Translations under genes and position numbers: made by a program | Assembly: GCF_002007105.1 (NCBI RefSeq) | Contig: NZ_MVBC01000017.1 | Location: 1 to 64,000 of the forward strand | DNA from: Hymenobacter sp. CRA2 | GTDB lineage: Bacteria > Bacteroidota > Bacteroidia > Cytophagales > Hymenobacteraceae | Direction of reading: 5' to 3' | DNA: 64,000 nucleotides | The notes under the pieces: model-generated | What the model was told of the DNA's origin: nothing | Seen by the model: only the letters and a program-made list of their open reading frames with translations | The model's database searches: none | Part shown: one piece after another, positions 5,537 to 6,102 of the stretch | How the letters are laid out: the number at the start of each line of letters is the position of its first letter | Numbering within the stretch: position 1 is the stretch's first letter

Positions 5537-5566
5537 TTGCGTTTTATGCATCCGGTACTACCTTTG
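5537..5566 (+). promoter_or_regulatory. Promoter of the methionine operon
   Basis: TTG at 5537-5539, exactly 19 bases, then TACCTTTG at 5559-5566: a full match to the Bacteroidota consensus. It lies about 40 bases before the SAM aptamer, so transcripts from it carry the whole leader. Confidence 0.8.
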
Positions 5567-5604
5567 TGCCACCTGCTGCTACCGGCGCAGGATTTTTTTG
5601 ACGC

Positions 5605-5720
5605 ATTTATTCCGAAGAGGCGAGAGACTAGGCTCCGTGACCCTCTGGCAACCACCAGCAATGCACAAGCTGGCAGGTGCCAAATCCTGCCCCACTGCTC
5701 ACTGCAGGAAGGGGAAAAAT
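5605..5720 (+). ncRNA. SAM-I (S-box) riboswitch
   Basis: The conserved core is visible in order: GAAGAGGCGAGAGACTAGGC, then CCGTGACCCTCTGGCAACC, a small hairpin (CCAGC ... GCTGG), and AGGTGCCAAATCCTGC. These match the S-box blocks agaGGcggAGGGACuggC, GCAACC and AGGUGCnAAuuCC. Outer strands ATTTATTCC (5605) and GGGGAAAAAT (to 5720) can form P1 with one mismatch. SAM-I aptamers bind S-adenosylmethionine and switch off methionine genes. No ordinary terminator follows at once; instead a short ORF begins 13 bases later, so the output mechanism is unclear. Confidence 0.9.
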
Positions 5721-5732
5721 AAACCGCGTGCC

Positions 5733-5891
5733 ATGAGCCACTACCCCCACACGTCCGACCATCGTTTGTCACCGCTCCCCGCAGCGGCGCCCGCTACCGC
5801 TTTGTCCGTAGCGGCCCCCGCCGCCGAGCGTGCCCGAATGCAGCCGCAGCTTCTGCGCGCTGCCTCGATGTGTTGTTGCTGTTGTTGGTAG
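5733..5891 (+). CDS. Leader peptide ending in five cysteines (candidate cysteine-sensing attenuator ORF)
   Basis: Starting at ATG 5733 the ORF encodes 52 residues and ends ...RAASMCCCCCW, then TAG. An internal ATG at 5838 would give a 17-residue peptide, MQPQLLRAASMCCCCCW, which looks more like a true leader. The five cysteine codons (5871-5885) sit at the very end, ahead of inverted repeats and 211 bases before metY. Run-of-codon leader peptides sense charged tRNA of the amino acid they are rich in, and polycysteine short ORFs are known cysteine attenuators in mycobacteria. The same role here is inferred. Its place directly after a SAM riboswitch and before a sulfhydrylase supports this. Confidence 0.7.
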   Translation: MSHYPHTSDHRLSPLPAAAPATALSVAAPAAERARMQPQLLRAASMCCCCCW

Positions 5892-5943
5892 TCGGCGCCG
5901 CGGGCCGCTAAATAGGCCTGCTCCTACCCTTCCCTACTCGTTT

Positions 5944-5967
5944 TGGCCGCCGGGCTTCCGGGCGGCG
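5944..5967 (+). promoter_or_regulatory. Hairpin downstream of the polycysteine ORF
   Basis: GCCGCC and GGCGGC pair around a GC-rich loop, about 55 bases past the leader stop, with T-rich sequence just upstream. It may be an intermediate structure in attenuation; no T-run follows. Confidence 0.4.
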
Positions 5968-6019
5968 CGTGGCTTCGCTGCACCCGTTGAGCTGTGCTCC
6001 GGGCGCTGAGCCGCACTTG

Positions 6020-6052
6020 AAGCCTCACGCGGCCCTAGGGCCGCGTGAGGCT
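6020..6052 (+). promoter_or_regulatory. Perfect hairpin before metY (attenuator candidate)
   Basis: AGCCTCACGCGGCCC pairs perfectly with GGGCCGCGTGAGGCT around a 2-3 base centre, ending 50 bases before the metY ATG. Its stability and place suggest a terminator or anti-ribosome structure controlled by the leader, although no T-run follows. Confidence 0.55.
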
Positions 6053-6102
6053 AACTCCCCGCATCGACTTCCTCGTCTACAACCCTCTTTCTCAGCCTCA
6101 TC

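Follow-up and report, generated by a model that had tools for sequence, protein, structure and literature searches.

The 64,000-nucleotide stretch of Hymenobacter sp. CRA2 DNA analysed here, hereafter the window, carries a metY gene whose leader appears to contain two sensors in a row: a SAM-I riboswitch and, directly behind it, a short open reading frame (ORF) ending in a run of cysteine codons. This arrangement raises the question of whether metY is subject to a two-input gate, as proposed in the original prediction made from this DNA, and of how SAM and cysteine would then act together. Judged from sequence comparisons, the pair looks like a two-input sulfur control.

Anatomy of the metY leader

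The leader is preceded by TTTG-N19-TACCTTTG, the single match to TTTG-N17-22-TANNTTTG on either strand of the window (Table 1). This pattern corresponds to the Bacteroidota promoter consensus; written as TTTGN{17,22}TANNTTTG, it is expected 0.35 times in 64 kb, and 29 of 100 shuffles contained at least one match. A consensus promoter had been predicted upstream, and one match to the pattern is present at 5536-5566. The aptamer that follows matched RF00162 with an E value of 4.6e-12. No other Rfam match above the cut-off was found in the 64-kb window, and in particular no T-box RNA after the SAM-I element. By its covariance-model score, the 5604-5725 segment is a SAM-I riboswitch, for which SAM binding is predicted. 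The original prediction had drawn the aptamer at 5605-5720 and had counted a low score as evidence against itself; at 62.3 bits for a cut-off of 44.4, the score is not low.

An ATG at 5733 opens an ORF encoding the 52-residue peptide MSHYPHTSDHRLSPLPAAAPATALSVAAPAAERARMQPQLLRAASMCCCCCW. This is the ATG that had been placed 13 bases after 5720, and it lies 7 nt past the Rfam end at 5725. The 3' end reads ATG-TGT-TGT-TGC-TGT-TGT-TGG-TAG, so that the five cysteine codons and the Trp predicted at 5871-5888 were seen in the translation, the Trp codon (5886-5888) standing between the cysteine codons and the stop (5889-5891). The start lies about 167 nt past the -7-like box, behind the SAM-I element, and 211 bases separate the stop from the metY start. 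In sequence terms these are the marks of a leader-peptide attenuator: control codons clustered close to the stop of a short ORF that lies ahead of genes for the same amino acid. TGT accounts for four of the five leader cysteine codons against 16 of 146 in the 36 long ORFs of the window, which suggests that either the nucleotides themselves or the choice of codon is under constraint as well.

Just upstream of the promoter-like element, CGTCATCCTGA and its reverse complement border positions 5345-5450 (5345-5355 and 5440-5450). The window holds eight matches to this element with at most one mismatch (0.6 expected), another one lying at 50029-50039, and the repeats at these three positions are perhaps a dispersed palindromic element.

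Table 1. Features of the metY locus in the window.
Feature	Position	Strand	Evidence or remark
Promoter-like element TTTGCG-N-TACCTTTG	5536..5566	+	sole pattern match in the window
SAM-I riboswitch aptamer (RF00162)	5604..5725	+	62.3 bits, GA 44.4, full model 1-108
Leader ORF, 52 codons, MCCCCCW-stop end	5733..5891	+	translation; frame-preserving gaps in sisters; start 7 nt past aptamer
5' arm of 19-nt inverted repeat (89%)	5809..5827	+	pairs with 5892-5910 and encloses the Cys run (window sequence)
Five Cys codons TGT TGT TGC TGT TGT	5871..5885	+	identical, with the next TGG TAG, in 8/8 genus genomes
3' arm of 19-nt inverted repeat	5892..5910	+	overlaps HP0
Hairpin HP0 (GCGGGCC/GGCCTGC)	5900..5921	+	8 sisters: 97.9% of cells paired, all changes one-sided
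Pyrimidine-rich tract CCTACCCTTCCCTACTC	5923..5939	+	sequence; sister loci carry a comparable tract; no significance reached in window-type loci (0/5)
Hairpin HP1	5945..5966	+	8 sisters: 100% of cells paired, all changes one-sided
Hairpin HP1b	5980..6006	+	81-85% of cells paired, two-sided changes at 3 pairs
Hairpin HP2 (palindrome, perfect in the window)	6021..6052	+	arms 6021-6036 / 6037-6052
C-rich, G-poor stretch (23 C, 4 G of 50)	6053..6102	+	mostly unpaired in predicted fold of 5889-6102
metY, O-acetylhomoserine/O-acetylserine sulfhydrylase	6103..7488	+	TIGR01326, 673.9 bits, cut-off 495.1
metX-like homoserine acyltransferase	7700..8734	+	best model TIGR01392, 347.9 bits, under its cut-off of 500
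hom, homoserine dehydrogenase, start approximate	8673..9983	+	NF004976 above cut-off, PF00742

Conservation of the leader within the genus

A SAM-I element followed by a leader ending in CCCCCW stands before metY in all eight genus genomes covered (G000-G007). The 21-nt Cys-Trp-stop stretch TGTTGTTGCTGTTGTTGGTAG is identical in all of them and the preceding peptide varies. In seven aligned sister loci the reading frame is preserved: gaps in the leader measure 3, 6 or 9 nt, though they represent few independent events, and gaps downstream are of any length. Substitution rates in the leader body were 0.287, 0.287 and 0.290 at the three codon positions, that is without bias, as counted in seven of the eight sister loci (L026, in which the Cys run is misaligned, was excluded). 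Since the frame is kept and the body shows no codon-position bias, translation rather than its product appears to be selected. Loss of the Cys run in relatives had been named in advance as an outcome against the prediction; the run was instead retained in 8/8 genus genomes and, according to a loose script, in 69 of 80 named metY loci.

Distribution of the leader among SAM-I loci

We fetched 58 SAM-I loci from the genus and from the best-scoring loci of the family, and scored a leader where an ORF started between -10 and +45 of the aptamer end and carried at least three Cys among its last 14 residues. Loci were sorted by the best blastp match to 14 reference proteins taken from those same loci, the gene names being assigned in this analysis; 'metB' denotes a transsulfuration-type PLP enzyme, for which the best models in the two proteins checked were cystathionine gamma-lyase/synthase, none of them reaching its cut-off. 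A simple core motif was missing in 4 of 188 SAM-I loci, which were kept. In this genus and best-scoring family set, a Cys-tail ORF followed the aptamer before metY (11/11), cysH (8/8), an AA_permease_2 transporter (8/8) and a RimK-like ATP-grasp gene (5/5), and before none of the metH (0/14), metB-like (0/5) or hom (0/4) genes. The totals are 32/32 against 0/23 SAM-I loci, with 69 of 1600 dinucleotide shuffles positive. These 55 of the 58 loci leave L069, L076 and L078, which were set aside as having other downstream genes. In all 32 positive loci the leader started 7 to 12 nt past the aptamer, within the -10 to +45 searched, at ATG in 14 cases and at a putative GTG, accepted by the script, in 18.

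The RimK-like ATP-grasp gene (MAQYPKPIGIYYEHPEW... in L004, the locus whose protein was scanned) carries SAM-I and a Cys leader in L004, L025, L029, L062 and L082, and this 5/5 association suggests a link to a Cys- or thiol-containing compound. L076 combines SAM-I and a leader CCIMCCC... with an ORF that by eye resembles a TonB/SusC-type receptor, and L078 has SAM-I and the leader ACMPSCCYC before an ORF that, again by eye, resembles a peptidase. A role of the genes behind these two leaders in sulfur scavenging is possible.

A search started from the CysH protein found a leader with at least three Cys in its last 14 residues in 25 of the 30 best-ranked genus and family cysH loci. The leader is therefore not universal before cysH, since 5/30 loci lacked it. 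Among the class loci of the same search, 5/29 had a close Cys-rich leader. The g3 cysH loci had the leader in 4/6, and a SAM-like motif was present in three of these four.

The phylum sample covered 130 of about 150 SAM-I matches. Among the matches listed, the leader preceded metY in 4/66 (62/66 without it), and metH in 0/27, metB-like in 0/14, nir-like in 0/8 and metX-like genes in 0/7; among the same matches, one of two TonB-type loci passed the loose leader test. The low metY count among the matches listed indicates that the arrangement is confined to part of the phylum. The best 80 named metY loci, read with a loose script, had a Cys-tail ORF at most 420 nt upstream in 59 cases, some 910-980 nt upstream in 10 and none in 11; the 59 'near' loci were inspected by eye in part, and one of them, L115, has its leader about 980 nt upstream. 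Seven of the 11 leaderless loci were scanned with Rfam: five were without SAM-I in the fetched stretch and two had SAM-I only. Where the SAM-I end was mapped in 16 further named loci, 14 had the leader, starting at +2 to +14. Named holders include Hymenobacter, Adhaeribacter, Pontibacter, Mucilaginibacter, Parachryseolinea and Microscillaceae and Flammeovirgaceae MAGs, and the leader is retained in Cytophagales and Sphingobacteriales loci. A CCCC-stop pattern, which also helped to choose some loci, matched in 54/60 family genomes.

The 10 distant leaders of the 80 best named loci, about 910-980 nt upstream of metY, belong to L102, L108, L114, L116, L117, L120, L121, L129, L133 and L136. In L102, L108 and L114, the three inspected, a peroxiredoxin-like gene or fragment (AhpC/TSA-like, by eye) sits between leader and metY, so that a redox gene may share control by the Cys leader.

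Cysteine leaders without a riboswitch and composition of the leader tails

In another genus of the family (g6), 13 of 14 fetched loci (L382-L394) have a leader like MVYSSHIKRMRFCCCSSCCCCC located 73-82 nt before cysH, and no SAM-I was found in their fetched stretches; for the remaining locus, L395, no gene start was obtained. In another family, ...MMCCCCCCC or a similar leader precedes cysH in L366, L368, L370 and L371, of which L368 and L370 are nearly identical; the stretches fetched for these four likewise showed no SAM-I. The Cys leader is therefore a separate module, as 17 cysH loci of two other lineages have it without SAM-I. More generally, leader and aptamer occur jointly or either alone, and are thus separate parts.

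The number and spacing of cysteines differ among lineages and interruptions occur. The tails are also enriched in Met, which makes up 197 of the 1262 non-Cys residues among the last 16 positions against 81 of 3278 before them, in sequences that are related and not independent. Several lineages show the enrichment in their metY and cysH leaders. It is weak in the leaders of ATP-grasp genes (4/51) and of g3 cysH (2/36), and permease leaders lack it (1/91). Leaders that read two amino acids exist, for example in ilv.

CGA-ATG-CG (Arg-Met-Arg) directly precedes the Cys run both in Hymenobacter metY leaders such as L085 and L098 and in the cysH leaders L382-L394 of the other genus, and could be a pausing motif or an RNA element. 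In L162 (about 2250-2470), a Chitinophagales MAG locus, metY is preceded by a leader containing Cys but by no SAM-I, and a terminator-like AAAAAGGCC...GGCCTTTTTGTTTTT was seen by eye between leader and gene; the locus is perhaps a classical attenuator version.

The segment between leader and metY

The 5889-6102 segment is structured, with a folding z of -4.28 that none of 200 shuffles equalled. The two best inverted repeats of 5726-6102 exceeded those of 60/60 shuffles, and the window sequence contains overlapping inverted repeats that would exclude one another. Pair cells of HP0, HP1 and HP1b were kept at 93.1% in the eight sister loci, compared with 38-54% (maximum 53.8%) when the structure was slid along the alignment. 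Two-sided changes occurred at three pairs, all in HP1b, against a shuffle mean of 0.8, and 13 of 500 shuffles also reached three. In this stretch, for which a covariation check (5895-6055) had been suggested, the pair changes are modest: two-sided at the three HP1b pairs and one-sided only in HP0 and HP1.

The two hairpins listed in the original prediction are both present, at 5945-5966 and 6021-6052; those at 5900-5921 and 5980-6006 were missing from its list. The predicted fold of HP2 has 14 bp and a 4-nt loop. A hairpin occupies its place in all eight sister loci, perfect in the window alone and imperfect in 7/7 others by raw count, and the perfect form was consequently rejected as a conserved element. 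By eye, no T-run directly follows any of the four hairpins of the window, and the terminator scan gave no site there.

For tests of the output step across leaders, identical downstream stretches were dropped, which left 132; duplex and pyrimidine tests also dropped stretches under 55 or 60 nt. Terminator-like sites past the leaders numbered 17/132 for 21.4 expected. With no overall enrichment, intrinsic termination was rejected as the general output. Only the permease group was clearly above its shuffles (6/8 for 3.2 expected). Window-type loci had 0/5, so that the intrinsic terminator usually sought between an attenuator leader and its gene was not found there. Duplexes of the Cys run with downstream RNA were no better than shuffles in most groups, window-type loci included (0/5). 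The g6 cysH leaders were weakly below their shuffles (median z -1.63, 4/13 under 0.05), and pairing at the gene start beat shuffles in 2/4 of the group 'cysH_noSAM', which wrongly includes L358, a locus with SAM-I. Outside these two groups, the idea that the Cys run generally pairs with RNA further downstream or at the gene start was rejected. A pyrimidine tract past the leader is over-represented (30/132 under 0.05, 10 under 0.01), mostly in metY leaders (Hymenobacter 14/30, Mucilaginibacter 8/16), and reached significance in none of the window-type (0/5), permease (0/8) or g6 (0/13) loci; as a sign of Rho loading it is only suggestive.

We infer that the last step is likelier to be Rho-type termination or translational masking of metY than an intrinsic terminator. 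These are the routes left by the results above. The proposed gate is supported in part: the split of 32/32 against 0/23 fits a SAM plus a cysteine input better than a chance neighbour, but intrinsic-terminator-like sites show no overall excess, and the hairpin is not conserved in its perfect form.

A two-stage reading of the leader and its alternatives

The reading of the metY leader that we favour, and hold to be just on the probable side, is a control in two stages, in which SAM would gate initiation on the leader ORF and the Cys (perhaps also Met) codons would then read tRNA charging. The 3' strand of the SAM-I P1 stem lies roughly 16 to 8 nt ahead of the leader ATG. With SAM bound, P1 would form and, to judge from its position, block leader initiation; with SAM low, the leader would be translated. 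Scarce Cys-tRNA, and perhaps Met-tRNA, would then hold a ribosome at 5871-5888, beside HP0, and the held ribosome would keep the structured, C-rich downstream RNA from silencing metY. A joint shortage of SAM and cysteine would thus switch the gene on, and this sign of the response is part of the proposal.

That SAM would block leader initiation is suggested by three points taken together. P1 ends 7 nt before the ATG; PMC2258182 places the ribosome-binding site in the 3' side of P1 for those SAM-I riboswitches whose aptamer itself hides it; and PMC6847099 describes Bacteroidota as lacking Shine-Dalgarno sequences, with initiation tuned by mRNA structure. The mostly fixed start of the leader just past the aptamer suggests that SAM acts on the leader and not directly on metY. 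A gate opened when both are low fits the gene split: the genes that acquire or fix sulfide have the leader, and those for MetH and the transsulfuration-type enzyme, so named by family assignment, have SAM-I alone.

The main competitor, which we regard as unlikely yet a real contender, is that the two elements are independent controls, SAM-I acting on transcription or mRNA fate and the Cys leader attenuating separately. Cys leaders before cysH without SAM-I, and SAM-I before metH and metB-like genes without a leader, agree with such independence. So does L358, in which some 110 nt separate SAM-I from the leader start and include what looks by eye like a hairpin with a T-run; this spacing also speaks against strict gating of the leader. 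However, the start at +7 to +12 in 32/32 loci of the genus and best-scoring family is closer and more fixed than independent controls need, and in the window the 3' end of the aptamer is free of overlapping terminator-like sites. Selection might also act on the Cys run as RNA: rich in U and G, it would be an arm masking the region of the metY start, with codon identity secondary. The TGT bias described above counts for this reading, RNAalifold pairs the run with conserved pre-metY sequence in the eight sisters, and the last codons of g6 cysH leaders change to Phe or Leu, seemingly matching changes in the partner arm (by eye), in line with the duplex energies of that group. We nevertheless find this improbable: duplex energies in window-type loci and most other groups do not surpass shuffles, and Cys is kept across lineages at varied positions and with interruptions. 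Covariation is uninformative on this point, as the sisters hardly differ in either arm.

Enrichment of Met beside Cys in the tails raises the idea that the ORF yields a functional small peptide, such as a nascent chain that senses metal or redox state, and does not gauge tRNA charging. Adjacent Cys and Met form a metal-ligand pattern. Nascent-chain copper sensing, described in PMC9973294, can be counted for this idea, but the variable number and spacing of Cys, the lack of codon-position bias in the leader body, and the fact that most named downstream genes serve sulfur assimilation or amino-acid uptake and not metal handling make it a distant prospect. As for a chance run without function in a GC-rich leader, TGY5 does occur 24 times in the 5.88-Mb genome; the division of the SAM-I loci, the rate of positive shuffles and retention of the leader in two orders leave this with a negligible probability, and we judge it excluded by conservation.

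In its general form, the two-stage control would be a riboswitch that regulates a leader peptide: SAM would decide whether a Cys/Met-codon leader is translated, and tRNA charging would then decide the fate of the sulfur gene. We consider this wider claim plausible but short of probable. If it is true, these Bacteroidota would keep the sulfide route (sulfate reduction, MetY and uptake) for times when SAM and cysteine are both scarce, and SAM alone would govern MetH and the route that uses cysteine. The split between sulfide-route genes with the leader and other SAM-I genes without it is a concrete prediction on the choice between two sulfur routes to methionine, and the start codon at +7 to +12 makes riboswitch action in Bacteroidota, which lack Shine-Dalgarno sequences, directly testable.

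Comparison with known systems

To our knowledge, few natural two-input RNA controls join a riboswitch to a ribosome-read leader, and neither amino-acid attenuation nor the output of SAM-I in Bacteroidota is well worked out. The original prediction knew of no described Bacteroidota case, and a Bacteroidota SAM-I with a Cys leader appeared in none of the open-licence papers searched, supplements aside, which is not proof that the combination is new. For Flavobacterium psychrophilum, PMC9723704 reports clues for leader-peptide attenuation before amino-acid operons generally, and PMC7366714 reports leader-like short ORFs in a Bacteroides thetaiotaomicron map; the supplementary tables of both may hold relevant cases. 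In sequence, the window resembles an attenuator in its leader-peptide anatomy and a SAM-I riboswitch by score, with no intrinsic terminator and no T-box match.

One of the closest likenesses to the leader ORF is found in mycobacteria. The polycysteine leaders of cys operons, as presented in PMC1262725, share with the window a short ORF, a Cys run near its stop, sulfur genes downstream and no obvious terminator, and Rho-dependent termination as in tna is one possibility proposed there; PMC13236596 cites Canestrari et al. 2020 for such leader ORFs. The window differs in belonging to another phylum, in lying behind SAM-I with a start just past the aptamer, and in its long structured segment; here the leaders also precede metY and permease genes besides cysH, and Met codons are mixed in. 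Unlike the mycobacterial leaderless attenuator, the window ORF is not leaderless by position. The uORFC-8-2 motif before cysS in Rhodobacterales, described in a passage of PMC8632094, is likewise a uORF with Cys codons and a proposed ribosome-mediated attenuator; it has two Cys codons, a U run consistent with an intrinsic terminator and cysS as target, and that passage mentions no riboswitch.

The order of the two sensors recalls the SAM-I/T-box tandem, in which SAM-I is followed by a sensor of tRNA charging before the same genes, with predicted NOT A AND B logic. The terms 'uorf' and 'attenuat' are absent from the text of a review of that tandem. In the window the second sensor is a putative translated leader and not a T-box, it would read Cys and possibly Met, and the host is a member of the Bacteroidota. 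Enterobacterial mgtA and corA have a leader ORF inside a metal-responsive structured Mg leader. As in the window, one mRNA there combines a leader ORF with a riboswitch-like element; the window differs in ligand, codons and phylum, and its ORF follows a complete aptamer.
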